NCBI RefSeq assembly: GCF_905475395.1
Contig: NC_058339.1
Coordinates: 5,216,001-5,280,000, forward strand
DNA length: 64,000 bases
Direction of reading: 5' to 3'
Source: Chrysoperla carnea
Taxonomy: Eukaryota > Arthropoda > Insecta > Neuroptera > Chrysopidae
Of the stretch, positions 28,701-59,245 are shown piece after piece; position 1 is the stretch's first letter, and every line of letters begins with the position of its first letter. The position numbers and the translations under genes are program-made. The notes under the pieces were generated by a model, which had not been told where the DNA came from, did no database searches, and saw only the letters and a program-made list of their open reading frames with translations.

Positions 28701-31700
28701 CAATACTTCCGAGGTATTGGAACTGTCGTACACGCTCTATGGGTTGGTTGTTAATGATAAGATCTTCGTTGTTGGCGTTGTTTATTCTCAACTCTTTGGT
28801 TTTTTCTTCGTTGATTTTCACTCCCACTTTGTTACCTTCTTCGACTAGGTCGTTTATTTTGCCTTTAATGTCATTGATATTATGTGACATAATTCAAAGA
28901 TCACCAGCATAATCAATATCTTCTAGCCGTTCTGTCATTTTCCACCTGATACCTCTGCGTCTGTTTTCATTGACCTTTCGCATCACTTTGCCAAGCACTA
29001 TTAGGAATAGGAGGAGAGAAAGCAAGCAGCCCTGTTTTACACCAGATTTGACGGGAAAGGGGTCGGTAAGTTTGTTTTGGTGTATAACCTGACACTCATA
29101 CCCCTCGTAAGTTTCCTTGATGATTTTTACCAATTTTGTGGGTACTCCATATTCTGCAAGTCCATTATTACATAGGTGTTGTTTTTTCGATTGAAAAGTT
29201 TTAGTTTCTTATGTTACGGTGTTATATCTGTAGTTATATCTATAGCATATCGCTGACGATTATGATGACTACCAAAATTCGTAAAAAAGGCGTCTAATGC
29301 GCCTATAGAAGTTTTCATTTCAAAAATTATTCCTTATAATTAAAAAATTTACTATATTTTATATACAAAACAAGTGAAAACAAACAATTGACTGAGTTAA
29401 TTGTTGAAATACCATGCATAATCAGTGTTGATTTCTTTATCACATTACACATACAAACATGTGACACATACATAACTGATAATCAAGTATAGTACATATT
29501 ATAAAATTTCCGCCTAATTGGCGCCCTCACGGGTAAATAGTGATGTTTACGAAAAAATGTTTCAAACAAAAGTTGTTTAATTTTTGATAAGAAACATTTA
29601 CATTTAAACTTTTGTTCTATCTCTAACGGTTTACAAGATGGGTCCTACGGACCCAAGACCCAATTGACCTATGATGCTCATTTACGAACTTGACCTCCCT
29701 TTTTACGTCCTGAGTACGCTGTAAAAATTTCAGCTCGATATCTTTTTTCTTTTTTGAGTTATCGTGTCCACAGACGGACGAACGGACAACCGGAAATGGA
29801 CTAATTAGGTGATTTAGTGAACACCTACGACAAAATTTTTGTCCTAGCATCATTATTTTTAAGCGTTACAAACTTAGGACTAAACTTAATATACTATGTA
29901 TATTTCATATATACATGGTATAAAAATTTACTATAAAAAAAATACAAATTTTTAAATTAACGTTAAGAAAGTTTATGTACAAAAGTATATTAAAAGCTGC
30001 AAATATATAAAATTAGTTAAACATTTTGTCAAAATTATTTTATATTAAGGTTTTTTTTTTGGAATGTAATATATCTTGCAATAATTAAATAAAACAAATT
30101 AAAATAAATTATACTAATTTTCTTTTATTAAAATAATAGTAAATTTTTACAAGAACAAAAAATAAGTGCAAATGCTAAAAAATAAACTTTTTAATTTTAT
30201 CAAACCTTAAAATAATCTTAAAATATCCCCCAATACAATCTACTCTATTTGTAATATTAACAAATTAACCTATGGTTCATAATTCCGTAACACTCTGTAT
30301 ATTCTAAATGATGTTAAAGAACGGCCCTGGAACTATTTGAGAAGTAAGTTAATTTAGTTAAACAGGTAAGTAATGAAAATGGAGAGTAATCCATTATAGT
30401 TTTGTCTCATATGATTTAGATTTGCCGAAAATAAATTTATTGACGGCAAATTTTTGCTTTTAAATTACAATCGGACTATCGGAGATTTTTTTGTTGGGTG
30501 AATACAATAGTTTAAGCTGGCAAATGACCGATGAATTGACGAGACACAGAAATGACAGCTCCAGAAAAAACAACCACAGTATTTGTTAAAGGCTTATAAA
30601 TAACTGTACCACAAAACATTCCTGTTTTTAGTTTTTTTGAGATAATTAACAAAAATTTTCACAAAATGTATGAAATTTAATATAACTACATAACGTTTGG
30701 CAACGTTGGACATGTGTTGAAGATATGTCATTGTATTTATACGTCACAGTGTAACTTTTGTTAAAATTTATTTTTAATCATCAAAACTCTTCGAAATAAT
30801 TGAATATATAATCTAATAATTTAAAAATATTAGTAAAATTATACATTTTCATCAATTTAAAATTAAGAAAAATTGGTTCTTTTAAAGTTGGCAACAGATT
30901 GTACATTCTCTGTATAGGACAGAGTGAGAGGGATAATGAGAACACCTTCTACTTTCATACACTTTTAAAAGATGAATAACTTATCATTATGATGTAAACA
31001 AAGCTTAATGTAAGTTAAAATCATATGTAAAACATAAAACACTTTATTTGACTTACAAAACTTTAACTTTCTTCTTCACACATACACAAACAATGATGTG
31101 GAATGTGTGTATAGAAAGTTTTAATCAAAGCACTAAATATTTGAGTTTTCAATGAGAAAACAATATGGTATAAGTTAATACTACATACCCTCGCACTTGT
31201 ATACCTACGTAGCACCCTTAGATTTTAAATAAAGTACTTACCCTATACCATATTCGAATATAATATTGCTCATTTTAGAATATTCCCTAAAATTAACGAT
31301 GTGGCTAAATAACCGCTGTGTCTTGTACATTTCGTAAATTTCTTGTTTTCATCGAATATTTTCATTTACACAATCGTCGCATCAAGGAATATATAAAATA
31401 GCCATAAAAAGTCCTCAATAACAGCTCCGATTTTGGTGATTTTTTTTCAAATGTTTATTTTTATATATTATTTAAAATCAGAAACTTTTCAGAGACGGGA
31501 AATTATACGGAGGGAGAAAAGGCAATGTCCCGATTGATGTATCAACGCCCACCCTAAATCGCTAAGGATTGAAGTTTAAAATTTTGAGAGGATATTGATT
31601 TTATACTGTATGTCTCATTTAAGAAAGGATTTTTGGAAATTCATCTTTTAAAAAGGTGAAATAGGGGATGAAAGTTTGTATGAAAATATGTACAAACCAT

Positions 31701-34700
31701 CATTTTCGAGTTCACTACTTAACCGATTTTAAAAATTTTCTCAACTTATGTTACAAAGCGTTAGCTGTCTCTTCTACCTACTCTGCTCCCTGCCAATACA
31801 ATTATATTAACATATTTTTGTTAGCTATCAATGTGCAAGTGCTAGAAATTATATCAGCACTCGTAAATCTATCGGCAGAGGCGGATAAGCAGCCCCATAG
31901 TATTGTGAAAGGGCAGACGACGAGATGGGAAGTTATGAATATATTAGAAAAGTTTTATATGAATTATATTTCATCAAAAGTTCATAATAACTTTTATTAT
32001 TTACGTTCTTTTGTTTTACACGGAGAGAATTTGTGTAGTTGCAAATAATTAGGTAGTACCTACTTATATTAATGCCACATTGAGATATTACAATGATATG
32101 AGACATATTACAATGATATGGTTTGCGTCAGTAAAGATATTTTCACGAGGCGGCGATGAATTCGGTTCTGCACATAATGAATTACTTCTATATATTTTTG
32201 CATTCAGTAGAAAAACGCAACGTGTATCCCAGTTTTTTCTTTATTTTGTTATGAGAATAATATAGCAGAAAAGTTTTAAAATACATAATACCATTCATTG
32301 ATTTTGTGTGGTATAAGAGTTAATTTATAGTTTAAAACAATTTATAACCAATACTTTTCAAACAAAATGGCGCAGAACAATAAAAAGTAAATAATTACTA
32401 ACTGTAAACTCTGTGAAATTAGTACTTAACTATAGTATCCAGTCAAACAAGAACTAAAGAGAAAATCTTTTAAATCAGTCAACATGCGGTTTTGAAAACA
32501 CTGTAAAACAAAAATCCTTCAATTTTCCAAATGACAGTTTCCCCAACTCAAAAGACAGAAAAGTATTGATCAAATTTTACACGTATTATAAATAATTAAA
32601 AATCGTAAAAACATTTTAAAAAACTGAGTTGATTTAATATTAGTTTGGTCAAGGTAGGCTAAACTCTATCATGTATAGAAATTTCTAGGTAGATTTGCTA
32701 TACCTATTTTTCTGTTTTCAACTTTTCACATCAGAAAATCTTGAGCAGGTACACACCACTTATAAATGAGGCAATATTCGTGGTTTTACTAACGACAATT
32801 TAGTTCAATGTGTATTGTATTGCAAATTGTGAAATCTGTTGGTTGGTAGATTCAGGCACGTAACTAATGATGTGATTCATTTGGAGGGGGTGAAAACTTT
32901 GGAAATTGGGGCGTTTTCAATGTGGTAAACGGAAAAAAATGTCAATTAAACGCCCTATTAAAAAAATATGAAAAACCATTTGCTTCTTTCTTGAGTGCAA
33001 GATAAATGAATATAATGAGAGAGAATAATAGTGGCGTACAAAAATATTGGACCGTTTAGCGTGACCTTCACAAGTTAAAAATGCATCTGCCAAAAATGAC
33101 CGTAAAGTGACACCTCATATTTGTATGTTGACGATGAGCCAACCAATCTTCCGCACGAAAGCATCCAAAACGATATTTAGATAGATATTGGATATGGCAT
33201 TAACCTTTCAAGTTTCTAGATACGCACCTGAGTACATTACAGTATTTTACAATGGTAGAATGTATCCATGTACTTGAAGAATACTTTTATGGAGGTAGAA
33301 TATGTTGAATTAAAATGTACCACTTGACGACAAACCTTCTAAAAAGATAGACCATTATGGCACGTTGTACCTACTCGTACTCTACTACCAATACCAAACA
33401 AACATTTCTACCAAGTCGTGTACGGAAGGGGATTATTCTATACAGAAAGGACAAAAGATATATTTTGTATTCTATGTATGTACATACGAACAATATTCAA
33501 CAAAATAAATGTCAGATTCGTTTTTTAACCGGTCATACGATCGAATAGTCATCTAAAATGAAATACACAGACACTTTATATTATATTTTACATAGAATAG
33601 CTGTGATGAATTTTGATGATTGTATATTTTAAGGTAGTTCCAACATGGTATATGCAGTTCCTATACTGAGGCACAAATTTTATCACTAATATAAGTATCG
33701 TTTAAAACTCCACACAAATACCAATTTGAAAGTCCCGCTAATGTACTTTATTTCGTTAACTACGATATATACCAATAGATGTCAGGAAGAGTCATATTTT
33801 GCAGTATATGTTTTAGTTTTTCATGAAAAGAGGGATAAAACGAAGACCCAAAAAACCCTGCATACTCATTTTCATGAAAATCGTTGGAGCCATTTCCAAG
33901 ATCGTTGTTATATATATAAATATACAAGAATTGCTCGTTTAAATATATAAGATATCAAAAAAAGCTAGGAAGACAGTTTTGAGTTTTATATGCTTTGAAT
34001 GTAAAATCACGAACTTTGCAGCTTTTGAAGGAGAATTATAAAAAACAATGTGATACGAGCATTATATATATTAGACACACAACACTAATGGAAATAAAAT
34101 TAATAACATGCGGATAAAGTTATTTAAAATAAAATTTTTGATGAAATTGACATAGGATAGCTCATATCAATTTCTATGTGTATCTAGGATAACATTACAT
34201 TTGTTGAAATTAGTTTCGTTACTAAATACAGTTTAATATGAATTGACGACATAAACTTTGTTCTATTTTCAAAACATTTCTCTTACCCTTTCTCAAGAGA
34301 CACCATTATACAAAAACAAACAGTGTGAATATACCGTATGCCCATTTTAAATCATCTAGCTGATTGTTGTTTTACTCGGAAATGCACATTGTGACCATTT
34401 TGTATTGAAATGGATATATCTCCAAGAAAATCTATTTTTATCTCCACAGTACTTGATGCAATAGTCGAAGAAATAAAGCAGTGAATTGTGTAAAGCAGTG
34501 TGGTAAGACGTATCGTGATGCGATTTTTTACATTCGATTCGCGAGGGCTTTGTGAACAAAAGTGATGTGGGAGAAATGTAAAACTGGAAAAACAGCAACA
34601 ACTAGAAACTAAATATCGATGGAAATGAGTCTAATTTTGTTATTTGGAAGTTTTTGCCGCTGAACTGGAATATCACAACGAAAATGGTCCCGAGACATCT

Positions 34701-37201
34701 GCTGCTCAGGGCGGGCAGTATACACCTCGTCTCTTGGAGTTTTACAAATTATGTAACATATTTTGTCGAAAGTCTTTACTCGTGGGTTTTTGCGTTCGCT
34801 CAACACGAATATTACTATGCAAATGGACCTCGAAGTATCTATTGACCAAGGCAAACCAAAGGGAGACGCCCAGGGACGAAATATGTTACATAGTCTCGTA
34901 AAAATCCAAGAAACGAGGTGACTGCACGACATTTTGCTGTAAAAGCTAACACTTCCGTTGTTTTGAAATAGAATGCAGTTAAAGTTTAGCGCTGGCCAAT
35001 TTATTTTGAAACGAATCATCAGTATAACGTCGATTCATGACGGCATTACCAATGGCCATTATAGTGATATATATTTCGTAAAACGCCCGATATTTATTGT
35101 TAAGTATGTACCTAACCTATACAATAGCACGAATACAAACACAATAGAAAAGAAGAAGTAAAGCAAACGAGAATTAAATGTATACAATAACGTAGAATAA
35201 TAATTGAGTTTTGTTTGTGTAATACTACCAACATTAAAGATTATTTACAAAATGGTATTATATGTTATATTATATATTTATGTTTATATTATGTATATCA
35301 TATAATATAGAGTATACAATATACATACAATATAGAATATCATAAATATACACTCATTTTAGTTCAGTACCGAATTGCATTGTAATTTTGAAAACTTGTT
35401 ATATTTGTTTGTATTCGTAAATCCAAGAAATTATAGGTGGCACTATAATAACAGTTGAAGAAGGAACTTTTTATTATGCCAGGAAGATATTCGCGTGTCG
35501 TACTTTAAGGGTCGCATCAGACTCTACCCACGGCTTGTTAAATTTAAGATGTAGTAGGCATGGAAAATGATTCTTTTAATGCCTCAGTAAAATGTCAATA
35601 TATGATTACGAAAACAAAAATTATAAATTTAATTTAAAGTACAGTACGTAAAGTACAGAATTCTAAAAAAAGAACGTGCAAATTAAATCAGATATATCGA
35701 CATCTGACGCCTTTTATAAATGCCAAAGTTGAAGATTTTTCTATATGCCATCGACATATCATACTGTTCTAATACAGTAGGTCCTATTATTTACATTTTG
35801 AGGTTTGTATGTAAGCTATAGTACCTCTGTAGAATGAAAATTAAACACATAAATCATAACAAAATGTGGAAATATTTTATTTTTATACCATGTATATATG
35901 AAATATACATAGTATTATAAGTTTAGTCCCAAGTTTGTAACGCCTAAAAATATTGATGCTACAAAAAAAAATTGGTATAGGTGTTCATAAAATCACCTAA
36001 TTAATCCATTTCCGGTTGTCCGTCCGTCCGTCCGTCCGTCCGTCCGTCCGTCCGTCTGTGGACACGATTACTCAAAAACGAAAAGAGATATCAAGCTGAA
36101 ATTTTTACAGCGTGCTTAGGACGTAAAAAGTGAGGTCAAGTTCGTAAATGAGCAACATGGGTCAATTGGGTCATGGGTCCGTAGTACCCATCTTGTAAAC
36201 CGTTAGAGATAGAACAAAAGTTTAAATGTAAAAAATGTTGCTTATAAAAAAATATAAAACTTTTGTTTGAAACATTTTTTTGTAAACATCACTGTTTACC
36301 CACGAGGGCGTTAATTAGGTGCAAATTTTATAGTATGTAATTAATATAGGAATATCAAAGTGAATATCTTTTGTTATTTACGTGACGTCAAAAAAACAAA
36401 CGAATGCGCATCAACACTTGCGCATTATATGAGAATATCAGTTAAATATGTCAGATATGAATGAATGTGAAATGTGAGTTATCAACACTGCCTATACATG
36501 GTATTTCAACAAATAACTCAGTCAATTGTTTGTTTTCACTTGTTTTTATCTACAATACATTTAGGAGGATATTATATACAGGGTGTTCCATTTTAATACA
36601 TGCATATTAATATCTAGCCAGAGGTGCCACCTTTTAAAAAAGTGCCTTAACAAAAATTGTAAAGTTTGATGGGGAACATCAAATTCGGACATCAGATTTG
36701 ACCTTAAAACTTGATAAAGATAATCCGCGGAACAGCACCCTTTTTTATCTTGATTCTTCGTGAGTGGCTTCCTTTTTGGCGAGTCTATCAAACACTACGA
36801 CTTTTTTAGAAAGTTCTGTGCTTCTTTCAAATAAGTCGGAAATTATCATCACTTGATAATATTAATATAATATTAATACTGCATCGGATAAGCTGGTCTA
36901 CCACCTCGAACACGTCGTATTTAAGTATTTTTGTTTTTCAGTACATACATAGTTTACTTTGTAAAATCAAGTGCAGGTCATAATTTCCGGCAAATTCCCT
37001 GCTGACTTTTTTAATAACGATTGCTTAAATATGATTTTATCATGCTGAAGAAAGTTTGATAGAGGAAACCACTCATAAAGTTTCAAGTATGTCCTGATCA
37101 TTTAACATAAAGCGTACTGTCCCGTGGACTAGGAGTTTCTGAAGAGCTACACTTCTGTGCAGACCATAATATAATATAATATCATCACAATGATATTATA
37201 T

Positions 37202-37289
<88 letters not shown>

Positions 37290-41555: not shown

Positions 41556-44500
41556 CGAATTTGAATGAGTATGTAGATTTGTTATCCTTGTTTGTAAATC
41601 GATTTAATTATTAAATAACATAAACGTTAGACAAAGATCAACATATAGAAAATTTAATGAATATGGTACGTTTATGTTTGTATGTATAAGTATACAAAAC
41701 CTACGTTAATAAATTGGTTTATGTCCATTTACAGTGGAACTTGGATAATTGGGATCTGGGTAAGAGAGAAACCTTCATAACTGGAACTCATGCTAAGGTC
41801 CCAACACTTTGGCATTGAATTACCTCTGGGACGAAGCAAACCTTTATATCTGGGATTCGTTTTTTCGATTTTATCGTCGTAATTACCTATATAACTGACA
41901 CAGCGAGTGAATTTTACATGAATTAACCTCTGTAACTGAGAACTGAGGTAACATCGTTTTATCGTTCATCTAATTTATCGTTCATCGTTCTAAGTAAACA
42001 TAGTTTTGCTTAACTATCATATGGATGTTTATTTGAAAAAATGCCGAAAAGTAGGCTTAAATCGTTAATAGTAGGTCAAAAACTGAAGTTAATATCCGTT
42101 TATAAAAGTGGGAAGTCACGTGATGAAGTCTGTGCCAAAATCTACTCTTTGTAAAATAGAGAAAGTTAACAAATGTAGCCAATGCATTGAAGATCGGCCA
42201 GTTCTTCTGCGCAATTATTCTGTAGCAGGCGAAGCGGGTTTATTTAATGTGTCCACTCGATAAAATGTTCACCTTATAAGACTTACAATACTTCTTGCAG
42301 CTAAATATTTTATTATTTACATGAATATTTTTATATATTACCTTCTGAAACCCTCTGTAAATGAGATAGGTACTTCTTTATACCTGGATATCTGAGACAC
42401 TGGGTAAGTGTAATACTTCTATAAGTGAGACAAATTTACAAGTACCTTGATGACTCACTTATCCAGGTTCCACTGTATTTTGGATTAAACTTTTTTCTTC
42501 CGCTGTTCGTTTTACCAAGACCTTGTCGAGACAAAAAAAAAATTAATTTAATTTTTTAGTTTTATGAATAAAAAATAGGCATACCTGTATCGAGGGTCAA
42601 CGAAAACGGGTGGGGTTGTGTTAGAAATACGTTTTGTAATCCCAAAATATAATTAATCTCGACAATCGTACGTTTCGTCTGCCATACTTTACACATCATT
42701 TTTTTTGTACTTAGAACGAAACAACTTTCTAAATAGTGATTTACTAAAGTGAACCCTTAAAGTTTACTTTACTTAACATCACAATACATAAATTCTTTTT
42801 TAAAGTAGTATGGTCACGGTATCTAATATGTATATCAAGGTATACTAAGTTTAGTCCCAAGTTTTTAACGCTGAAAAATATTGATTCTACGAACAAAATT
42901 TTGGTATGGGTGTTCATAAAATCACTTAATTAGTTCATTTCCGGCTGTTTGACTTCTCGTCTGTCTGCGTAAACTTGATAACTAAAAAATGATGAGAGAG
43001 ACAAGCTGAAATTTTTATAGCGTGCTTTGGACGTAGAAAGTGTGGTCGAGTTCGTAAATAAGCAACATAGCTCAATTGGGTCTTGGGTAGATTGGGTATG
43101 TGCGATATCCTTCCATTATAGTACTGATTGGTATACGTTCCATTTTATTTAAAAAAACCTTTATACAAAAACAGTAAAATTTATTATTTAGGTATCATGA
43201 TCGTTCTCCCTTAAAGCAAGTATTTTTCTCTTGACATTTTTCAGGAACTTTTGTTTCTTTTTCTATTTTGTATACCTTTATATTGGAAAGTAATCAATTT
43301 ACTTTTTTTCAATAGGTGTATAAGAGTAGAGACAATTATTTCCAGTTGAAAAATTTATGTTATTGCCTTCTTCATTTTACATAAAAGGTATATTTAACCG
43401 TCAGCGGTACGATGGTACCCTTTATTTATCTTGACTATGTCGTCTTTTTTAGACAAATTTTCTTTTTATCATCAACATCATACAGAGAAAAAGCATGTTT
43501 AATGCATTCAAGTGAAAATTTAACATAATATATGCTTGAAAAAGTCAGTTTATTCTTTCATTTAAATCTATCTCATTGAACAACTGTCTATAGTATGCCC
43601 TATCATCATGAATTTTAGCTTTATTGTACTAGTTTTATTTTATTGATTCCTTTCTTGAAACCTTATTTTTTTCGAAAATGTTATAAGCTTTCGCACTGTT
43701 AATTTATAAAAGTTAGTATTTCTCGGAATATCAGTAATTAATAAGAATGAAATAAATTTATTGAGAAAGAATGAAATAAATTTATTGAGAAACTTTCCCG
43801 TAATGAAGTATTTAAGTATTATGTAAGCAAATTTTCGGTGACCTTACACACTCACCCATCTCTATAGGAGAAAATAAGAAAATCGTTAAATATGACGATA
43901 TGACCCATTTTGTGTCGCATTTTTGAACGCAAGGGCTAAAGACTTCAGAACCCAACCAACTCCTCTTTAGTCGACAAATTCCACTCAACCAACTCGCAAT
44001 TCAGAGCTTTCAAAAATAAAATCAGCTTCAACATAACAAACAGCTAAACGTTCAAGATAACAAAAATGAAAAAAATAAAAAAAAAACCAATAGATCACAG
44101 AATCACAGACTCGGTAAAATTGATTCCATACAAAACTATTTGGGTTGGAGCTTAATGGAATTTTAAAATCGAATAATAAGAAAACCGAGAAAGAGATGTT
44201 GCAAAATATTAATAACAGCACGAGACTTTCAAACAGTTATTGCTTCTCGGAACTAAAGTATATTCAATGTCAGTGGACAGCATTGCACAATGTTTGGACT
44301 GTTCCTTATGCAAAGAACAGCTACATTGGATATTAATTGGATTTCTAGGAAGTTTCTAGCATCATATAAACGTAATGTATTTAATTATGTTGTGTATTTT
44401 AATGAGATACCCTGAAACCAAATATAATTTATGTCATCATTCAAGAATATACAGGGTGAATCAGCGGACATATTGATATGTTTCTAATATTATTAAATTG

Positions 44501-47500
44501 CGAAAATAAGTTTATTTATAAAATCTATACAACATTTCAATTTCATCCTAATCATTCTCGGTCTGTTTGTTATATTTTCCGGTAAAAACTAAACAAAAAA
44601 CTACCTTTGTGTGGAGGCTATTCCATAAAAATATTCGAGACTTACGTTTCAAATTTTGACGGTGAATTCTGTTACAACTTAGACAAAAATTAAAAGTAAA
44701 ATCTTTTCGACATATATAGTCTAGGAGCCAGGTACAGTTTTGGTCAATTATTTCTTCTCGAGTGAAACTTCGTAAAATGCATTAGGCACTTATACTACGA
44801 ATACTCGCGACCGTCAGCTGCGACTCCGTGGGTGGGACGGGCAGTGGCAGCCTCCCACGCATGGAGGAAAAAAAAATCTTTTCAGTCATTTCCTCCCATT
44901 TGAAAATTTGTCAGATTATAGTTTACCTAGTATTTTAAAGAAAAAACAAAGTCAGCTGACCATAACATGGTGGATTATATATCAGCTGGCTGCTTGAACA
45001 TGAAAAAAAAAATTTATATTTTCAATGATTTCCTCTCAACTAAAAATTTACCTGGTGGTCGTTTATATGCTACTATGAATGAAAATTAATGTCAGCTTGC
45101 TATATCTAAGTGGAAAGTTTGTCAGCTGGTACCTTCAAAGGTGTAACGCAGCAACATCGATCACCTACTGTATCTTATCAGCTGACGACTTTTCCCTTGA
45201 CTTACAGCTAGCTGATTTTTTTCATTATTTACTAGAGCATATTAACAATCATCCTATAAATTTTCGTCCGGGAGAAAATAACGTATCTTAAGTTATTCGG
45301 CAGTATGCTTGATTTGAGTGTTTTGATAACAAATTTAAAGTTAAATAATGGAGAAAATGTTGGTATGAGTGAATTAATTAATGAATAATTTATTGTAGTT
45401 AAATATTTTTTTAATTTATTAACTTTCATTTCAACGAATTCATTAAAAATAACAATCAAAATTAATCACTTTCATTCTCGGCTTTGGCTTGAGTCGCTTT
45501 CATCTCTCTCTGATTCACTGTCAGAGTCGCTATCAGAGTTAGATGCGATCATATCTTCATCATCATCATCTGTAAAAAGATGAAAAAAAAAATTATTAAT
45601 CCGTTTAATTTCGAGAAATTATTGATTTTATACTGTAAATGTCACATTAAAAAGGATTTTTCGAAATTCATCCCCTAAAAGGGTGAAATAGGGGATGAAA
45701 GTTTGTATGAAAATATATAAAAACCGTCATTTTTGAGTTCATTTCTTAACCGATTTTAAAAATTCTTTCACCTATATAATGCTACATTATCAGCAAGTAA
45801 AATGGGCTATATTTTATTTTCAAAAAAATTAAGGTTCCGTAGCAAAAGTTAAAATCAATTAAATACTGAAACCGACATTTTTGAGTTCACTACGTTACCG
45901 ATTTTAAAAATTCTTTCACCTATAGAATGCTATATTATCAGCAATTAACATATGTTGTATTTTATTTTCAAAAAAGTTAGGGTTCCGCACTAAAAGTTAA
46001 AATCAATTTTTGGTGTGCGTGGAAAAAAATCACGCAAGAATGAATTTTTTTATATAAGTTGCAAAAATATTGTTTAAACAATATAAATAACTAGTAGTTA
46101 TAGTCTTCAATTCTCTTAAGTTCCCTTATGTTCACTATTTAATGGATTGTCCTGACCATGACTTTTAGTGCGAATCCCGAATAATTTTGAAAAGAACATT
46201 CGGCCATGTCACTTGTTGATAATATAGCATTCTATAGGTGAAAGAATTTTTAAAATCGGTAACGTAGTGAACTCAAAAATGTCGGTTTCAGTATTTAATT
46301 GATTTTAACTTTTGCTACGGAACCTTAATTTTTTTGAAAATAAAATATAGCCCATTTTACTTGCTGATAATGTAGCATTATATAGGTGAAAGAATTTTTA
46401 AAATCGGTTAAGAAATGAACTCAAAAATGACGGTTTTTATATATTTTCATACAAACTTTCATCCCCTATTTCACCCTTTTAGGGGATGAATTTCGAAAAA
46501 TCCTTTTTAATGTGACATTTACAGTATAAAATCAATAATTTCTCGAAATTAAACGGATTAATAATTTTTTTTTTCATCTTTTTACAGATGATGATGATGA
46601 AGATATGATCGCATCTAACTCTGATAGCGACTCTGACAGTGAATCAGAGAGAGATGAAAGCGACTCAAGCCAAAGCCGAGAATGAAAGTGATTAATTTTG
46701 ATTGTTATTTTTAATGAATTCGTTGAAATGAAAGTTAATAAATTAAAAAAATATTTAACTACAATAAATTATTCATTAATTAATTCACTCATACCAACAT
46801 TTTCTCCATTATTTAACTTTAAATTTGTTATCAAAACACTCAAATCAAGCATACTGCCGAATAACTTAAGATACGTTATTTTCTCCCGGACGAAAATTTA
46901 TAGGATGATTGTTAATATGCTCTAGTAAATAATGAAAAAAATCAGCTAGCTGTAAGTCAAGGGAAAAGTCGTCAGCTGATAAGATACAGTAGGTGATCGA
47001 TGTTGCTGCGTTACACCTTTGAAGGTACCAGCTGACAAACTTTCCACTTAGATATAGCAAGCTGACATTAATTTTCATTCATAGTAGCATATAAACGACC
47101 ACCAGGTAAATTTTTAGTTGAGAGGAAATCATTGAAAATATAAATTTTTTTTTTCATGTTCAAGCAGCCAGCTGATATATAATCCACCATGTTATGGTCA
47201 GCTGACTTTGTTTTTTCTTTAAAATACTAGGTAAACTATAATCTGACAAATTTTCAAATGGGAGGAAATGACTGAAAAGATTTTTTTTTCCTCCATGCGT
47301 GGGAGGCTGCCACTGCCCGTCCCACCCACGGAGTCGCAGCTGACGGTCGCGAGTATTCGTAGTATAAATCCCTAATGCATTTCACAAATTTTTGATTGGG
47401 AGGGACTTGGTCGTGAAAATCTGTCACTGGCTCCTAGACTAATACTACAGTTTTTGAAATATTGATGAGATTTAGAGAAAATTACTTATAGAAGAAATAA

Positions 47501-50500
47501 CACACAAATGTTATTCATGTAATCCCTTTAAATGGATTTTATGGAAAAACGAGTGACGCTTGTTATAATTTTTTTACAGTGATGCTTTTAACTAATGAAT
47601 ATTAAGTTTCCAAATTAATCTTTTTAAAATAAGTCTTGTTACATAATAAAGATTACCTTTAAAAACACTTCAATATAGAATTTATATAACTCAAATCAAT
47701 AAACTTAACATCGTAAACGGTAGGTATTAAAAAATTCACTTGCTTATAAAGGATATTAATGAAAATGTATATACATGATTTAAATTAAAGGTAAATTGTC
47801 CTAAAACCTCGTGCAGAAGGTCGTGCAAATCGTTCCGGAACTGGAAAACTTCGTTTCTGCATTTTTTACAACGAATGCAAGCTATTAAAAAATTAGCCTT
47901 CTCAAATTTTCCGAATGTATTATCAACATCCCGTAGAATTTATCCAACTGTACCTATTTGAAACTTATACGATGTTTGCCGTATTCCTTGTATGATGTGG
48001 GCCACATATCTAACCACTGCAGCTGAATATTAAAAGACAATTACATCATCTTGAATATTGGACAATGGAAAAAATTCTCGAACGTCTATAATCGACTTAA
48101 AAACAAAGTCGATATAGAATTATTATTTCATGTGTTTTTTCCACTTAATTAATATTCCATATTGTATCCACCTTCCATAGAGACAAATGTATTGTGCTTT
48201 CACACAATGTGCAAATTACTATGTAGACTAGTAAAATTCAATGGTTTTGTGCTATCGGAATATTATACTGAACTTGTCTACGTTTTATAATAAACATGCT
48301 AAAATTTACATTATTATGTAAAACTTCTATCTAAACAGAACAATGTTTTCAATTTATTCGTATACAACCCATACGTTCACAAACCTATTTCATTTATCGT
48401 CAGCTTTCAAATTAATTTCTTCGACCATCGCCCCTCATTATATAAGTTTTCTCCTCTAATCATGCACGAATTTGGTGTTAGAAGAATTTTTTGACAATAT
48501 CTAAATTTTTTTAATAAATAAACCTGTCCATGTGGTTGTGACAATCACATCAGTATTTTGTTGTAATATTTATAAGTGGTCGAACCAATTAAAAAAAAAA
48601 AAAAGAGTTGAGATTGAGTTGAAAAAATTGCATTCGTGTCTAGAACTCGAATAGCCTAATTGGTAGGGCGCTTGACATGAATCCAAGAAGTCCGGGTCCG
48701 AGTCCTGGTTCGAGTGTATTTTTTTCAATCCTCTCTTTAATTAAAAATTACTAGACAAGTATTTGTCAATAATTAGTTTACGAATGTATGTAACATATTA
48801 TATATCAAAATTAGTCGAACAGACCATGATGTAAATATTGTGTGCATGATTAAATGTGAACAACAATAATAAGTAATAATAAAAAAAAGATTGTTTAAAA
48901 CTAAATTGCATTTGAAAACAACAATATTTGAAATTTATTAGACAGTGTATTACTTTCATACAAACAACTCATGCGTTTGTGTCAACTTCACCACTCAATC
49001 CCGTACGGTAGTTGTATCACATTGATGGCACCTTTCGCCATATTTGATCTTGAGGTTGAGACAACCTCATATCAGTTGGTATTAAGAGTTTTTTTTTCAG
49101 TGTACTGTATACATGTATAGTATAGTAGATTTGTTTGTATTTGTAAGTTCAAACGTTGTTTACGTGTTTTGTATACAAAATGATGAAATGAAAATGAATA
49201 AAATATTTTGATGAAAATTCTTTTCACTTTATACATTACGTGTTTGTATTTGTATTGATTCATCTCTCATATTACATTAATGCAGTATATGCGGCGTAAA
49301 ATACCACAGATATACCCACTTATTACAGAAAAAGTAGCCTGTCCGGTTTTACAACGGGATAATTACGAGAAAATTAGTAGTTTAAATATACTTTGGAAAA
49401 CCAGTTTCTTTGCAAAGAAAAAGTCTTGGTGATGGTTTTGCAAATATATGTCTTGGTCTTGTAGAATATAGTCTTGGTCTTACAGGGATGAGTCTTGGCC
49501 TTAGTCTTGGAATTGCAAAACCATCTCAATTTTGGTCTTCGCTAATTGAGTCTTGTTATCAGACGACAACAACTGAAATCTAAATTAAAATCGCATTAAA
49601 TAAATTGCAAGGCCAAGGGCAAGACTGTCAGACCGAGACTAATTTTGCTCATCGTCGTTCCAAACTTTATCGCGGTTTTTACACTTGCTGCTAAAATATA
49701 ATAATAAAAGAAGTCTAGGCGAAGAGATTAAGCCCCAAAAAACCGCTCTACTATAATCCCTCGACTAAGAGAAAAGTTTTTACGAAAGGTGTTTTTTCAA
49801 AAGTTATAAACAAATTTAAAAACGACTATTTTCGCTCATTTTTTCAAATTTTCTCGGCATCTACGCATCCAAATTAAACGTACCAGACGTCAATCGATAG
49901 ATAGATATAATCGATTTATTGAGATCTATAACTTTTCTATTTAATTTTTTTGTATTGGAGGTCAACTTTTTTTTAATCGCAAGAAACCCATATTTTCTAC
50001 TTTTGCAAATTTTTTATCTTAGCCATTGATTAGCCGTAAACAAAAAAACGCTTTGTCTCTTGGCTTGTTTTCTTCTATAACAACGTATTTTTCTTAAAAA
50101 GTACTATTTTTCTCCTTATTATCCCGTGGCAAAACCGACCGAGTGAACTTTTTTTAATATGAAATTCCACAGCCTGTACTACATAGAATTATATATTATC
50201 CATCCATCTATCCAAACCGTATCACTGCTTTTTTATTTATTTATTTTTCCTTTTCAAATGTTTGTTTGTCCATGTCATATAATTTCAATTAATTCTAGGT
50301 ATAAACACATACACACAAGTGGGGTGGTGGTGGACGCTGGAAAATATTTGAGGTAGAATAACTGAATGTTGGAGGGAGAGTTTTTTGTTACTAGGGGATA
50401 CAAATTTTTTTACCAAAAGCAGACTTAAAAAAAACATACTAGAATTAAAAAATAATTATTTTAATTAATAACTTAGACATTTATATGAAACAAACATCTG

Positions 50501-51729
50501 TATAACATTTTTTTTTCTGGATAATTTTTGCATTTTTTTGCAGCGGTATAATTTGTTGAGATAGCAGAAGCTATTAAAAATATAATATATGTAATTTGTA
50601 TTACTTATACAGGGATTTTTTTAAATTTGAAACAATTTGAAAAAAATTACGCCAGATATCGAAAAATTGTATTCTTACTTTTCGTCTTTTATCGTCAAGT
50701 TTTAACATAATACATTATGTTATTTATTTTATACTCTACAGTCTAGATATTATAGCGAATTTGAATTTTATTTACCCTTCATTATTTTTGATCATCCAAT
50801 AAAATTAATTAATATTTCCACGAATAATAATAATTACTTGCAGTATTTGTATTTTATGTTATCAATTAATATAAATTTCATTGTTTTCAGTGAAATGTGA
50901 TACTACAAATCTGACATGTTATCAATGTGAACGCAATACAAATGTTGAATGTGGTGAAGAATCTTTGTTGCCATGTCCACCGGTATCAGACCGATGTGTC
51001 ACACATATTGCCAAAAATGGTATGTATCATTTTATAATTATAAACGTATCCACTTTCGTGTTCTATACATGGAATTTTTTTTTTTAACAAAATTGTTTAA
51101 ATATACTCCTACATATCTCGGGGGTGACTTCTTGAACCGTTTCCCTTATTATCTGTTCAAAATGGTCTACATTTCTAAAGGACCATTAATATTCCTATTG
51201 AACTATCTCAATTTGTGGACACACCCTGTATATTCAATGCCAAAAGTTTTTTTATAAATCCAACTTAGCTTCAATAATTTTACTTTACCATTTGTTTGTA
51301 AACAATTGAAAATTACTCTTATTTTAAATAAAACGCATGATTTATTACAAATTTTATTAGGTAATAGCGCTGCAGTCGATTTAACACTATAGTTTCCAAA
51401 AAGTGAAACCAGAAACGTAATGCTAGTTTTTAATTAACTTCTCTATAATAATTCATATTTTCTTTTTTGTTTTAGCTCAAAATGGTTTTACATTAAAACG
51501 TGAATGTGGTCTAGGCCCATGCGGTTTTGACGATGATGCCATGAACAAAGGTTTAGGCCTTGACGGATGTGATCGAAGTCGTGATGAATATTTTTGTATA
51601 TTTTGTTGTCGTGGTAATGGTTGTAATAAAAGTGTTGGATCTCGTTTATTAGTTCAACAATCATTTTTATTGGTTTTTAGTGTTTTAAGTAGTACGTTGT
51701 TTTTTTATAAATATGTTACATGCCAATGA
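22714..51729 (+). CDS. Second Ly6/uPAR GPI-anchored protein with a 28-kb first intron
   Basis: Proposed exons are 22714-22780, 50891-51019 and 51476-51729, together 450 nt and 149 residues. Exon 1 encodes a signal peptide (MFNVYKLFSWIVLSFLLSYC) and ends in phase 1 at a perfect GTAAGT. No other exon before 50.9 kb continues it. Exon 2 opens in the matching phase after TTGTTTTCAG and begins the cysteine-rich domain (KCDTTNLTCYQC). Exon 3 ends it with CIFCCRGNGCNKS, followed by a GPI-type hydrophobic tail (SFLLVFSVLSSTLFFY). Thirteen cysteines lie in the mature part. The last two exons are firm. Linking them to the signal exon 28 kb away is inferred from phase, length and head-to-head placement with the other Ly6 gene. 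A polyadenylation signal lies at 51773-51778. Confidence 0.72.
22781..25314. other. Left part of the large Ly6 intron, no gene recognised
   Basis: A more GC-balanced stretch at 22900-23450 has overlapping short frames on both strands but no recognisable domain. It is most likely an old repeat. The remainder is AT-rich. Confidence 0.4.
25314..25618. mobile_element. Pogo-like MITE, short copy (301 bp)
   Basis: The element 25316-25616 has inverted ends CAGTGGAATCTCTATAATTC and, reverse-complemented, CAGTGGAACCTCGATAACTC. It is flanked by TA on both sides. TA target choice and a CAGTGGAACCT..ATAA end are typical of pogo/Tigger-type elements. No coding sequence remains. Confidence 0.8.
26426..27418 (+). 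CDS. EXD1: EXD1-like protein: Lsm-like domain plus degenerate 3'-5' exonuclease domain
   Basis: Single-exon gene, 330 residues from the first ATG at 26426. An in-frame GTG six bases upstream is not needed. The N-terminal ~55 residues (KGQKIHLTLTEGDEYEGTI) form an Lsm/Sm-like strand pattern, and residues about 115-300 match the DnaQ-type exonuclease fold of EXD1. The usual first catalytic DxE reads IAIDAKHV, so its Glu is Lys, and the last YxxxD motif is not recognisable (VTYSITLYNC). Animal EXD1 is known to be catalytically inactive and to act as an RNA adaptor in the PET complex of the piRNA pathway. The gene lies in the large Ly6 intron on the same strand. AATAAA lies at 27507-27512, shortly followed by an A-tract. 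Lack of introns could mean retroposition. Confidence 0.9.
   Translation: MELKKGQKIHLTLTEGDEYEGTIHQINPKSSRITLYGVKDKSNGMIFNTLHHYQKNEIREIKIIEESKTKKPSSKDVPTPIENKPEVFDGFKDICEYKINLPKYELDRLEFMKKNVLYLSKINKQFCSAVKYLNSCENIAIDAKHVDHGRASEMSLLVIASWNTIYVFDIKLMGEQAFEKGIKDIFVNENILKIFHSGVKIVDCLKNRFNIPVRNIADTQILDALIRYKREKQENLRTLSECLTSFLNAPHNFIDEQSHYPKWNERPVPEILRHKVGERVTYSITLYNCMQRQLQNDFYDKVDTFMNSMSKLDPGQAFYALTRPEKMLNI
27466..27506 (+). repeat. Fragment of the GTCY element's left end, in the EXD1 3' UTR
   Basis: ACAAGTGGAACAAACACTTG followed by ACTGAGTTAATTGTT matches the left ends of the longer copies at 29365 and (inverted) 36545. It lies within 50-90 bp of the EXD1 stop codon, so EXD1 mRNA probably ends inside repeat sequence. 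Confidence 0.65.
27600..28130. repeat. Diverged tandem repeat with CGAATATTTTCAAATATA units
   Basis: Two units share GAACRATCGAATATTTTCAA, TATCAAAT and a TTACATTAMAAAAYTGTAA block (near 27765-27845 and 27900-27980), separated by G-rich sequence. No coding potential was seen. Confidence 0.6.
28300..29165 (-). pseudogene. Non-LTR retrotransposon reverse transcriptase fragment
   Basis: The minus-strand frame contains an RT finger/palm motif (SGVKQGCLLSLLLFL) and then the catalytic-site region. The expected YADD reads YAGD there and is followed two residues on by an in-frame stop. The same frame continues with VEEGNKVGVKINEEKTKE and RVRQFQYLGSIVSENGGTDE, typical of the RT thumb in LINE-type elements, then RIRKAKAAFAQLRPIW and a divergent C-terminal tail. 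The 5' two thirds are missing. An ATATAT tract (28311-28326) marks the 3' end. Dead relic. Confidence 0.88.
29365..29931 (+). mobile_element. GTCY-type dispersed element, long copy
   Basis: Long copy running from ACAAGTGAAAACAAACAATT to the AT-rich hairpin end ATATACATGGTATAA. Inside are GCGCCCTCACGGGTAAATAG, GTTTACAAGATGGGTCCTAC, the CGGACGAACGGACAACCGG microsatellite and AAGCGTTACAAACTTAGGAC. It aligns by eye over its length with the inverted copy at 35.9-36.5 kb. A GTCY microsatellite with a terminal hairpin suggests a Helentron-derived (DINE-1-like) element. Confidence 0.75.
29932..35880. other. Large Ly6 intron, central part, no gene recognised
   Basis: About 6 kb of AT-rich sequence. 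A segment near 31580-31760 is a relative of the repeat in the 44.7-47.4 kb palindrome (shared AAATAGGGGATGAAAGTTTG and TTAACCGATTTTAAAAATT). An inverted pair lies at 34723-34771 and 34877-34922 (CACCTCG...CTTGGA). Open frames here are short and lack family features. Confidence 0.5.
34723..34922. repeat. Inverted repeat with ~45-bp arms
   Basis: The left arm starts near CACCTCGTCTCTTGGAG and the right arm ends CCAAGAAACGAGGTG. Both contain TATGTAACATAT next to the loop. The enclosed ~105 bp is relatively GC-rich. It may be a decayed MITE. No target duplication was identified. Confidence 0.55.
35883..36545 (-). mobile_element. GTCY-type dispersed element, long inverted copy
   Basis: Reverse-oriented counterpart of the copy at 29365-29931, about 660 bp. 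It runs from TATACCATGTATATATGAAA (hairpin end) to GTTTGTTTTCACTTGT. It carries the longest and purest tetranucleotide tract in the window, (CCGT)n at about 36019-36055. The same internal blocks occur in the same relative order. Confidence 0.78.
36546..39598. other. Large Ly6 intron, no gene recognised
   Basis: AT-rich, with a solo TATACAGGGTGTTCCATTTT end near 36577 and an AT microsatellite at 37206-37283. The minus-strand frame 36561-36791 and the plus-strand frame 37917-38195 have no recognisable domain and no coding context. Confidence 0.5.
37206..37283. repeat. (AT)n microsatellite
   Basis: Uninterrupted alternating AT for about 78 bp, able to extrude as a cruciform and likely length-polymorphic. 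Confidence 0.95.
39599..39928. repeat. Foldback repeat with ~120-bp diverged arms
   Basis: The left arm has AAGCTTTTGTAGCTAGCTGA and AACGTAAAAAAGCGTG. The right arm has the complements, CACGCTTTTTTACG and TTCAGCTAGTTACAAAAGCG, in mirrored order around 39750. Arms are clearly diverged. It has no coding sequence. Confidence 0.7.
39929..41729. other. Large Ly6 intron, no gene recognised
   Basis: AT-rich unique-looking sequence containing a second AT microsatellite at 41492-41549. No exon or RNA gene could be supported. Confidence 0.5.
41492..41549. repeat. (AT)n microsatellite
   Basis: About 58 bp of pure alternating AT. Confidence 0.95.
41730..42477 (+). mobile_element. Pogo-like element, internally deleted (744 bp)
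   Basis: The inverted ends are CAGTGGAACTTGGATAATTG at 41732 and, reverse-complemented at 42475, CAGTGGAACCTGGATAAGTG, flanked by TA on both sides. Inside, near 42041, a plus-strand frame begins MPKSRLKSLIVGQKLKLISV and continues to a KSRDEV-like segment before a stop. This matches the N-terminal CENP-B/pogo-type DNA-binding domain (start, lysine-rich, helix-turn-helix). The catalytic part is deleted. More intact than the 301-bp relative at 25.3 kb. Confidence 0.82.
42812..43090 (-). repeat. GTCY-type dispersed element, partial inverted copy
   Basis: Contains CTAAGTTTAGTCCCAAGTTT, GAACAAAATTTTGGTATGGG, GCTGAAATTTTTATAGCGTG and CTCAATTGGGTCTTGGG in the order of the family. The microsatellite is decayed (TCTCGTCTGTCTGCG). 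Confidence 0.75.
43091..44717. other. Large Ly6 intron, no gene recognised
   Basis: AT-rich sequence with a solo ATATACAGGGTG end near 44451 and a short direct repeat at 43746-43790. No coding exon was recognised. Confidence 0.45.
45472..45569 (-). pseudogene. Captured acidic terminal exon, left-arm copy
   Basis: Mirror copy of 46588-46685: a CTTTTTACAG acceptor, then 31 codons rich in Asp, Glu and Ser, then a stop. See the right-arm copy. Confidence 0.55.
46588..46685 (+). pseudogene. Captured acidic terminal exon, right-arm copy
   Basis: After a good 3' splice site (TTTTTTCATCTTTTTACAG) the phase-1 frame reads DDDEDMIASNSDSDSDSESE followed by a further Ser/Asp/Glu/Arg run and a stop, 31 residues. 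It looks like the last exon of a host gene whose protein ends in an acidic Ser-rich tail, perhaps a phosphorylated nuclear protein. No upstream exon is present in the element, so this is a fragment. The source gene was not recognised. Confidence 0.55.
47441..48644. other. Large Ly6 intron, no gene recognised
   Basis: AT-rich sequence without recognisable exons or repeats beyond short A/T runs. Confidence 0.45.
48645..48885 (+). repeat. Probable tRNA-derived SINE (tRNA-like head plus body)
   Basis: The head 48645-48715 folds as a tRNA-like cloverleaf: acceptor ACTCGAA pairs with TTCGAGT, D-arm GCCTAATTGGTAGGGC, T-arm CCGGG-TCCGAGT-CCTGG. The anticodon arm is imperfect and base 33 is not T, so it is not a working tRNA. 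The following ~100 bp (GTTTACGAATGTATGTAACA to TGCATGATTAAATGTGAACA) recur inverted at 57.1-57.2 kb without the head, as expected of a SINE body. Confidence 0.6.
48886..50890. other. Large Ly6 intron, right part, no gene recognised
   Basis: This includes a stretch with many TCTTGGTCTT-type words (49425-49560), a simple degenerate repeat, and an inverted copy of the 13.9-kb repeat near 50030-50100. Frames at 49072-49263 and 50159-50356 are low-complexity and not called. Confidence 0.5.
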
Positions 51730-54496: not shown

Positions 54497-57400
54497 ATGT
54501 TTAAATTTTATGTATTTTTGGGAGTTTTATTGCAACTGCATTTTGTAATGATGGAAACATTAATAGCTAGGAAAATTGTCCATCAAAATTTTAACACAAG
54601 TATTCAAGAGAATTGTTCAAATTTTGGTAAGCAAATTATTGTTATAACATTACTACCATTGCTGTATTTAGGCTTAAACAAGTGAAGCAATTGCCTAGGA
54701 TGGCACAGTTTTAGAGGAATCAAAATTTTAAAGGGGAAATCATTCCAATTTTAAATACGAAATAATAGATCTTTGGGCTTCTATCAATAACAGTCTTTTT
54801 ATAAATTTCAGATACAATGGTAAAATTTACTGAATATTTTAACAATTTTATATTAGGGAGATTACCACCGTTTGACCTAACTATTTCGAACGATATTTCT
54901 TCCATTTGCCGATCCCACAGCGCGGAATATCAAAAACAATTGCAAAATTTATCATTTTGGGCAATTAAAAGTATGTAGGTATTCTTACTTTTTTATAAAT
55001 TAGTTAGTGCAGGTTGTAACAGCGATATCTTTAATTTTTACAACGAATAAACCCAAGTTCTTGAATTCAATTTTTGAATTAACAGCATAAATAAAATTCA
55101 AAAGATTTTATTTTAATTAAAAATTAAAAATTTTCAAGTGTACGATGCATCGGCCAAAATACCATCCGGATTGTTAAGTGGAAATATAAATCAATTTGGT
55201 GATTTTGATGAATGTATAAATTCACATTCTGATGATGGTGAAATTGCGGGACAATATTGCTTAGTAGATATTCAAACAGTGGAACCAAGTTCAAAATCTG
55301 ACTATTTGTTAAAACTGAATAATTTAATAAATACATATTATCCAGCTCATAGTGATTTCGACGATGTAAGTTCGATTTGAATGCTTATTATTAAACAAAT
55401 TTAAAAATTGAGATTTCGGTAAACAATAAGCCATTTATAGTCTAGTCAAAAAGTTGACATTGTTCTAAGAAAATGTCTTTATTACAGGCAGGACACATTG
55501 GACCACGTATGTCATCAATTCGTTGGGCCCTGTGTGTGCCAGCATCTTGTTCCCGTCAAGATGTAGAAATTGGTCTGAAAGCTGGATTACAATCTTTTGT
55601 AGAAAAAAATGGAAAACCTTTGCAGATAAAAGTATTTGATGAATCATGTCAAATAATAGAAAATCCAATTCCATGGTCTGCAATTATAGTTGGGTATAGT
55701 AAGATAGAAATTGTTTAAACTAAGAAATAGAGAATTTGAGCTCAAAAATTTTAGGGAACTTGCTGAAAATATGGTTATAGGTAGTTGAAATGAACGTTTA
55801 ATATTATTTAAAAATTGTTATATTCGACAAATTCGATTAATAAAAAAGTTTTTTTTTTTCGCCATTTTTCTCAAGCTCCATGTGATAACAACTTTGATAT
55901 GTTATTTCACATGTTACTTAACACCAAATCAATTAATCCTTAAAATTTTGGATCTCAGATCGTAATTTATTTCTCTATTGATTGTGTTAATAAGTTAAAA
56001 TTAAATTTTTTACTTTTAGATTATTGTTTGCAGTTTATATTTTATTCGTAATCACGGTAACCATAATCGACTCTTATTTTCAATACTCGATAAACGATGG
56101 GAATGATATACTTTATGCATTTTCGTTGCATCGTAACTTAAAATCATTATTTTCATATGAACGATCTACAGATGATATTAAGAGTGTTCATGGGATTCGA
56201 TTTTTAAATATGCTTATGATATTCATGAGCCATAAAACACTGTACGGAATGTACTCAGGCTACGTGAACAAAGCAGATTGGGTAGAGGTATTTCAAAAAG
56301 AATTAAAAAACTCAAGTTTGATAATATAAAGCTTTTTAGAAATTTGTGTTTTACTTTTTTTCAGTTTTTAATAAGTCCTTTGTCGCTCGGTGGTCGAGCT
56401 ACAATTTTGTACACTGATACATTTTTAATGCTTAGCGGAATGTTATGGGCTTACTCATATTTTGGCCGCATAAATCGTGGAAAACAAGTTCATATTATCG
56501 AAGAATTTATATCACGTTTAGCTAGGTAGACTTTTCAATAATTTTGACCAAAAATAAGAGAATTAATTGCTAGCAGAAATTATTTGATGCAGTTTTTGTT
56601 ACTCGTTTTTAGACATGTTGTAAATCGTTAAAAATTACTCCAGACTTTGTTCGGCATCTTGGATTTTGAGGATAAAGGATTTTACTAAGAAAACTGCAGG
56701 AAAATTGAATAAAAATGCAAAAAAAAAAAACTTAAACTGCATGAAAAAATTTCTTAAATAATACAAATTTCCTAAGCCGAAGTATTTCCCCATTTTATAA
56801 ATTTTTGTCTCAATTTTTTTATGGAAGGATTCTACCCTCATTATGTGCTGTAATATTGTTTGTTGGATTTATTCATCCATGGTTAAGTTCTGGGCCGCAA
56901 TGGAATGCAATTGTTGGACATAATTCAAAACTTTGCCGAAATTATTGGTGGCGTAATTTACTATTCATTCAAAATTTCTTTGGTGTTGAAAATATGGTAA
57001 ATTTAAAAAAGATTTCATTTTAGTACAAGAGACACGGTCTAAATTCGAACTTCACCCATCTGATAACCAGATGAGACCAATTTTTTATGAAATTTTATCG
57101 ATTTTTAAACACGTCTATCATATTACTTATTGTTGTTGTTTACATTTAATCATGCACACGATATTTACATCATGGTCTGGTCGACTAATTTTTGATATAT
57201 AATATGTTACACATTCGTAAACTATCATAATTTTTCTATCGAAAAGTGTTCTTGGCTATTTTTATACCATGTATATATTAAGTATATCAAAGTATACTAA
57301 GTTTAGTCCCAAGTTTGTAACGCTTGATACTCACGAACGTTTGTAACGCTCGCGCTTGCTTGTTAAGATATTGATACTCCGAACAAAATTTGGGTATAGA

Positions 57401-59245
57401 TATTTATAAAATCCCCTAATTAGTCCATTATCGGATGTCTATCTGTCCATCTGTCTGTCAACTTGATAACTCAAAAACGAATAAAGATTTGGAGCTGAAA
57501 TTTTTACGACGTAAAAAGTAAGATCGAGTTCATCAATGAGTAGCATAAATCAATTGAGTATTGGGTCCGTAGGGTTATAAAATCAATCCATATTAGAAAA
57601 TCAAGCATTTTTCTGAGGCCGATATTTGTAGAACATTCGTTTCAACAAACTAAAAAAGTATTTATGTTACATCAAATAATTTTAGTGCTTAGTTCCGTCA
57701 CACCATGTTGCAACTGACACATTATTATTTTTAATTTCTCCGTTATTTCTTTGGATGCTACTGAAATGGAAAAAATTTGGAGTTTTTATTATATTGATTG
57801 TAGCTATGTGGTCAACAGTTCTACGTTATAACATGATGTACACGAAAAAACTTTCAGCGAATTTTCACTATGGAACTAGGTGCGTATAAATTTTTATTGA
57901 TACGTATTTTTTAAACCGCATACGACTTACTGCTTAAATTTTTCGAACTTTAATCCCTTTTGTCATTTTTAATTGCTTATAACTTTTTGCAATTTTTATA
58001 TGTGCTAGAAAATCTTCCGGCACATTTTTCCGAATCCATCATTCTGAATCCAACGAACTATCGCACATATTTTTAAAAGCATTATTTCTATCTTTCATCA
58101 TTTTCAACTTGTCTATTTTCAACTAGACTATTTTGTAATTTCTAGAATTAAACAATTAGTGAACGCCGCTGATTATATGTATGTTATACCAACGCATCGT
58201 ATTACTGTTTATCTACTTGGTATTTTATTGGGTTATTATCTGCGTAATATGAAAAATATTAGTTTAAAACCAATTGTATTAAATATTGGACATGCAACAG
58301 CTATTGCATTATTTAGTATTGTTTTCGTTGCACCAGCTTTTACAAGTGGAAAATCATATAAATATAATCCTAGTCATCCAGCATGGTATGCAGGATACGG
58401 ACCGATCCCATGGTGTTTAGTATGGGCATGGATTATTTTTACTGATTGTTTTGGTTTTCATAGTGAGTTAATTTTTCGTAAAATATTTATAATTTAAGTA
58501 ATTTAGGCAAATTAATATAGTTTAAGAACTTCAATAAAAACTTTTTTCATTCAAATAGTGTCACTTTTACTCAATATCAAAATTAAAAGGGTTAAAAGAG
58601 AAATAAAGAAACATTGAGATAGAAAATATCAAATATCACTTCTAAACCTAACTTCGAAAACACCAAAAACCAAATCAACGATAGTAATACATTTTTTTTT
58701 GTAATTTTAGATATTTTAACTAAATTGCTTTCATGGCGTGGATTTTTGATCACAACACGTTTATCATACGCAATTTATTTGGTCCAATTACCAATTTTGG
58801 GTCATAATGCAGCTACAAATCGAAGTTCAAACTATTTCCACCTATTCAAAACATTGGTAAGAAATATCAATTGGTTTTTTGTAATGCTCGAAAGCTTGAT
58901 CTTCGAGCATAGTAAGGGAAGGTGTCCTGTATTGATTCCTCTGAGAAAAAATGCAAAATATAGCCAAACTATTCGAGATGTGTACAATGTCGAAATATTT
59001 TTGGTTTCTTAATTCAAGTATTGCAATATTGGCATGGACAGTAATTATATTTAATTATTTTTTTCTTTATTTCATTTAATTTTTATTTTTTGCAGTTTAA
59101 TTTCCATGAGTTGAGTGTTGTCATTTTATTATCCATAATATTAACAGTTTTATTTGAAAAACCATTTGAAACAATTAAAAAAATTTGTTTGAAGAAATAT
59201 AAAAAAAGATTTACAAAACAAATTACGACAATAAAGGACGATTAA
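54497..59245 (+). CDS. NRF-6-like (nose resistant to fluoxetine) acyltransferase-3 membrane protein, eleven exons
   Basis: Exons are 54497-54626, 54812-54970, 55139-55365, 55488-55693, 56020-56287, 56365-56525, 56828-56996, 57686-57879, 58146-58462, 58711-58856 and 59096-59245. Together they give 2127 nt and 708 residues, and phases agree at all ten junctions. Residues 1-20 form a signal peptide (FKFYVFLGVLLQLHF). The NRF domain follows, with SFWAIKMYDASAKIPSGLL, GDFDECI, YCLVDIQ and CVPASC. From about residue 240 the acyltransferase-3 part begins: HGIRFLNMLMIFMSH with the conserved His, then GRATILYTDTFLMLSG, CRNYWWRNLLFI, THRITVYLLGILLGYY and about ten membrane segments, ending FEKPFE and a lysine-rich tail. 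Family members act in lipid or yolk transport in worm gut and are expanded in insects. The substrate is unknown. The exon 7 acceptor (TTTATGGAAG) is the weakest site. Intron 7 holds a GTCY element. AATAAA is at 59309. Confidence 0.95.
57123..57235 (-). repeat. Inverted copy of the SINE-like body in NRF intron 7
   Basis: Reverse-complement match to 48776-48885 (GTTTACGAATGTGTAACATA, ATTAGTCGACCAGACCATGA). The tRNA-like head is absent here. Confidence 0.65.
57262..57565 (-). repeat. GTCY-type dispersed element, partial inverted copy in NRF intron 7
   Basis: Starts TATACCATGTATATATTAAG and contains CTAAGTTTAGTCCCAAGTTT, a decayed TCTGTCCATCTGTCTGTC microsatellite and CAATTGAGTATTGGGTCC. It carries a short extra insertion near 57325-57365. 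Confidence 0.75.

Follow-up and report, generated by a model that had tools for sequence, protein, structure and literature searches.

A near-perfect 2.7-kb palindrome with a terminal exon in both arms in Chrysoperla carnea: a candidate foldback-type DNA transposon with one end present twice

In a 64-kb stretch of the Chrysoperla carnea genome (contig NC_058339.1, positions 5,216,001 to 5,280,000; hereafter the window), we analysed a palindrome of about 2.72 kb, which we read, with moderate confidence, as a non-autonomous DNA transposon of the foldback type. In this reading, copying or conversion has transferred one of its end regions, together with a gene's terminal exon, to the opposite end. 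The palindrome consists mostly of arm sequence, namely inverted repeats of 1,151 bp without a single mismatch that are separated by a spacer of 276 bp; the arms of about 1.15 kb with a mirror sum of 92157 that had been predicted earlier are exact for these identical arms. When the window was searched for exact inverted repeats using 40-bp exact-match seeds, the runner-up was a self-complementary stretch of 78 bp (37207-37284). Several traits of the foldback-type class are present: very long inverted repeats forming most of the element, a terminal motif of 15 bp shared by both outer ends, and repeats within the inverted repeats, each arm having a CAGCTG array as well as tandem units with a spacing of 148 bp. 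Read inwards, each arm holds the tip, the array, a 3' UTR, the last exon and an intron with nested repeats (Table 1). Two other palindromic stretches were noted in the window. The larger one (2786-3709, 924 bp) has other tips and diverged arms that are about 86% complementary overall, with ungapped arm pieces being 89-96% complementary, and the shorter one (14538-14717, 180 bp, arm pieces 96-97% complementary) is MITE-like.

Table 1 Features of the palindrome, in coordinates of the window.
Feature	Position	Strand	Remark
Left tip	44717-44731	+	Inverted identical at 47427-47441; outer TAGTCTA may be tip or target sequence
Left outer flank	44732-44789	+	Homologous to right outer flank, diverged
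Left arm	44790-45940	+	Equals right arm across 1151 bp
Left CAGCTG array, five sites	44815-45184	+	
Left exon copy, 31 complete codons and stop	45472-45569	-	
Interspersed repeat within arm	45607-45773	+	86% identical to 31580-31746
Two tandem copies of 140-bp match, 148-bp spacing	45721-46008	+	87% identical; inner end of left arm
Left inner flank	45941-45997	+	Diverged homology to 46161-46216
Loop	45998-46160	.	Halves without homology to each other (46011-46149 tested)
Right inner flank	46161-46216	-	Diverged
Right arm	46217-47367	-	Equals left arm
Right exon copy	46588-46685	+	Acceptor ending 46587, TGA 46683-46685
Three polyadenylation-type hexamers after exon	46737-46768	+	
Right CAGCTG array, five sites	46973-47342	-	
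Right outer flank	47368-47426	-	Diverged from left outer flank
Right tip	47427-47441	-	Match to left tip

The reading as a transposon with a copied end depends on what surrounds the identical core. At the outer ends, the tip TAGTCTAGGAGCCAG occurs in two identical, inverted copies; the original prediction of a shared terminal motif was thus correct as to the sharing, but the motif is 15 bp rather than 14 bp long and the tips sum to 92158 instead of 92157, because the outer flanks differ by one base in length. Alignment of the complete outer regions (44717-44789 versus 47368-47441) gave 53 identical positions out of 71 aligned (75%) with five gap columns, the identity being complete in the outermost 15 bp, 21 of 34 aligned positions (62%) in the 36 bp that follow and 17 of 22 (77%) in the 22 bp adjoining the core. 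The local alignment score of 54 compares with a maximum of 31 in 2000 mononucleotide shuffles. When the outermost 25 bp are left out, the score drops to 30 and the shuffles reach up to 29, which makes the homology from the tip to the core a real but modest one. On the other side of the core, the inner flanks are identical at 41 of 56 aligned positions (73%; score 50, shuffle maximum 36), a homology that had not been noted before. Inverted homology above shuffles was found neither in the deeper loop (46011-46149) nor in 300 bp of genomic flank on either side.

That the perfect core is flanked by diverged homology on either side suggests that the related ends predate the identity of the core, although the inner homology falls in a repeat that is also found elsewhere, both in tandem and interspersed, and may therefore predate it for other reasons. 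In the alignments, this arrangement favours gene conversion, or else aberrant gap repair, over a plain inverted duplication, and it is the pattern from which we infer copying onto the other end. According to the proposed mechanism, the two tips, whose 15-bp identity beside strongly diverged sequence is observed, would be the transposon ends, and an end region of about 1.15 kb would have been copied, inverted, to the opposite end when a break or an excision gap was repaired. The copying may have used homology on the outside, in the subterminal region, as well as on the inside, in the 148-bp repeats, and would have lengthened the terminal inverted repeats (TIRs) to about 1.2 kb, leaving an element without a transposase domain. 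The palindrome would then offer a snapshot of how long TIRs originate, with a perfect core caught between older, diverged homology and with both the exon and the interspersed repeat present in the two arms.

The abrupt change from zero mismatches over 1,151 bp to about 25% divergence could also be the pattern left by an assembly in which imperfect inverted arms, differing by perhaps a few per cent, collapsed to one consensus that was used twice. Such a collapse would leave the inverted organisation itself unexplained, and the tips and the outer and inner flanks are distinct yet homologous; we hold it to be a rather unlikely account of the palindrome. The diverged outer ends had been taken earlier as an argument against an artefact. 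This argument stands for a simple read fold-back, which would give mirrored genomic flanks: the outer flanks are not the same, and the genomic flanks bear no relation to each other and show no mirroring. It does not extend to a collapse of two similar arms.

At the ends of the palindrome, no target-site duplication (TSD) above chance was detected, including the classes of 7-8 bp and 8-10 bp. The best candidate, TAGTCTA/TAGACTA, matches at six of seven positions and, with its single mismatch, was rejected as a duplication of 7 bp, being no better than chance: in the same scan on random position pairs, 699 of 2000 gave a match of 7-9 bp with at most one mismatch. Because TAGTCTA is near-palindromic, tip and target are inseparable at this position. 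Neither a second copy of the palindrome nor an autonomous relative was seen in the 64-kb window, which has no exact tip apart from the pair at its ends. The lack of a TSD above chance and of a second copy in the window would suit a plain recent inverted duplication of ordinary genomic DNA without any transposon. In that case, however, homology should stop at the breakpoints, whereas it continues past both of them, the outermost 15 bp are identical again beyond diverged sequence, and the CAGCTG arrays adjoin the tips, all of which makes a plain duplication very improbable. In searches outside the window, the 15-bp tip matched seven stretches of viral contigs once each, and we judged these matches, from the size of the collection, to be presumably due to chance. 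Viral contigs gave zero matches to 32 bp from the interspersed repeat of the arm and to 20 bp from the exon, and a 20-bp subterminal piece gave zero in prokaryotic and viral contigs. As insect DNA is not to be expected in these collections, the zeros carry little weight. Seven Rfam matches with E values of up to 5 were all far under the gathering scores and were rejected. Strings of the tip in the literature led, among the matches listed, to mammalian biomedical titles, probably reflecting primers, and were rejected on the titles alone.

The subterminal CAGCTG arrays are far above chance, as had been proposed from the five sites per arm within about 370 bp. A 401-bp subterminal block contains five CAGCTG sites compared to 0.07 expected, a number reached in 0 of 5000 dinucleotide shuffles. 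Altogether, the palindrome holds 10 of the 21 CAGCTG sites of the window and, for the extended motif RTCAGCTG, 14 of 15 occurrences, with 1.0 expected. By analogy, the arrays are probably subterminal binding sites for a transposase or a host factor; secondary transposase-binding sites have been proposed for repeats in TIRs or subterminal regions (PMC3573991, in excerpt). CAGCTG together with transposon terms was absent among the literature matches listed. Adjoining the tip, each arm also has a GC-rich block (44809-44872 in the left arm) for which a stable hairpin of -29.4 kcal/mol is predicted; for a larger stretch of this GC-rich subterminal block, the folding z-score is -2.4, and 6 of 200 shuffles fold equally well.

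Further inwards, the splice acceptor and the acidic 31-codon exon that had been described for each arm were corroborated. Read from the loop outwards, each copy consists of a pyrimidine-rich acceptor, 31 complete codons and a TGA stop, followed in the right arm by AATAAA/ATTAAA hexamers at 46737, 46742 and 46763, i.e. 52-78 bp past the stop. With 24 of 30 residues being D, E or S, the two copies top the 18,253 open 30-residue stretches of the window, the best stretch outside the palindrome reaching 13 of 30. The codons are varied, with Ser drawn from both of its codon families and Asp from both of its codons, which favours a protein-coding origin over a microsatellite. The interspersed repeat and the 148-bp-spaced unit lie between the acceptor and the loop. 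We read the order of tip, array, 3' UTR, last exon and intron as a 3' end, present twice, of an element that bears a gene. We infer that the element's own gene probably ends in the acidic exon and that both arms derive from the 3' end of that gene.

An origin from the element's own gene appears more likely than capture from the host, in which transduplication would have brought some unrelated host gene's terminal exon into the inverted repeats of a foldback element. The exon does look like a genuine gene end, and the comparison of the exon alone with Pfam matched no family, a result that is uninformative for so short an acidic tail and that ties the exon to no transposase, leaving nothing that would assign it to one. 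Moreover, non-autonomous derivatives of Aedes aegypti MULEs are described as carrying fragments of host genes (PMC5225508, in excerpt), but in that excerpt these fragments lie between the TIRs and not in both of them. The order from tip to intron is what would be expected from the end of an element's own gene, the end of the ORF of Galileo itself is present in both of its TIRs (PMC4168063, in excerpt), and a MULE-type TSD of 8-10 bp above chance is lacking at the palindrome. Taken together, we consider host capture unlikely. Of the interpretation put forward in the original prediction, the foldback element and the gene conversion are thus supported and mutually compatible, whereas the capture of a host exon is less well supported.

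Galileo, of the P superfamily, has tips of a different sequence from those of the palindrome. The structural parallel is close nevertheless: in Drosophila willistoni, the final piece of the Galileo ORF was recruited into both TIRs, over more than 500 bp in one copy, similar to the exon in both arms here, the TIRs were expanded by internal tandem repeats, and other transposable elements inserted in one TIR occur in both (excerpt of PMC4168063). For D. mojavensis, TIRs of up to about 1.2 kb, recruitment of internal sequence into the TIRs and twelve chimeric copies, their TIRs diverged and their TSDs not matching, are described (excerpt of PMC3573991). The arms of the palindrome are 100% identical, compared to 95.2% in the one Galileo copy for which that excerpt quotes a figure. 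Since the palindrome has neither a 7-8 bp TSD above chance nor a transposase, we draw no link to the P superfamily. A second parallel is provided by the MULE families of Aedes aegypti, most of which have long TIRs with short subterminal repeats. Muta1 and the foldback-type MULEs of mosquitoes resemble the palindrome in combining long TIRs with a short terminal motif and a subterminal repeat array, and their non-autonomous derivatives may carry gene fragments as the palindrome carries an exon (PMC5225508, same excerpt). In Muta1 itself, a TIR of 145 bp comprises nine tandem repeats of 12 bp, and the TSDs measure 8-9 bp (same source), in contrast to the five dispersed CAGCTG sites, the arms of more than 1.1 kb and the lack of a TSD above chance in the palindrome. 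Judged by these comparisons, the structure of the palindrome is not of a new kind and appears as a clean instance close to the descriptions of Galileo.

The palindrome also has one trait of a hairpin RNA (hpRNA) or Mu killer-like silencing locus, namely a long inverted repeat with gene sequence in its arms. Mu killer of maize comprises two copies of one MuDR end plus about 1.3 kb of its gene and, like the palindrome, is an internally deleted and partly inverted-duplicated transposon with the same end and gene stretch on each side (PMC3440606, in excerpt). The two loci differ in the part of the gene that is duplicated, the TIRA-adjacent start of mudrA in Mu killer as opposed to the 3' end of a gene in the palindrome; the silencing of MuDR is an effect described for Mu killer. 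In an insect counterpart of Mu killer, transcription into or across the arms would give hairpin or antisense RNA and, from it, siRNAs against the end of the parent gene, with matches to the subterminal region, the 3' UTR and the last exon. In this way, the end of a broken transposon that had copied itself would silence its intact relatives, or a host gene if the exon is the host's, and, if transcribed, such arms would be a natural source of RNA against the transposon or gene of origin. According to the same excerpt of PMC3440606, however, silencing lines of Mu killer produce short antisense transcripts that start within the element and are incapable of forming large hairpins, and read-through sense transcripts are associated with failure of silencing. 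This association of silencing with short antisense transcripts, and not with a long read-through hairpin, weakens the simplest hairpin model for the palindrome, and a silencing function of this kind seems to us a long shot.

With regard to the surroundings, the palindrome had been placed inside an intron of a Ly6 gene, which we could not confirm, as the Ly6-like exons (at about 50893-51018 and 51476-51729) both lie downstream of it and a home-made screen gave no convincing signal-peptide exon upstream. Joined together, these exons scored 20.4 bits against the Pfam Quiver/Ly6 family, under the cut-off of 27.3. Under strict settings, the screen yielded no signal-peptide exon. A relaxed screen of 28000-50880 gave three candidates: a pair downstream of the palindrome with a common end at 50318, and a weak one at 28471-28597. 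With its self-compiled donor-site matrix and a single reading phase, this screen carries little weight in either direction. Pfam matches above the cut-offs in the window were to trehalase and PTHB1, with RNase H just below. The trehalase-like ORF (4551-5162 in the Pfam scan) is flanked by repeat copies at 6694-7614 and 4178-4525 that have a spacing of about 316 bp and a mutual identity of 85-97%. An interspersed repeat family has at least six copies in the window (323-606, 29493-29927, 35876-36339, 42819-43088, 57257-57573 and 63304-63467). The only tRNA gene reported by ARAGORN in the window, a tRNA-Ser (tga) at 48645-48716, adjoins a repeat common to 48774-48878 and 57121-57224, and may thus belong to a tRNA-derived SINE.
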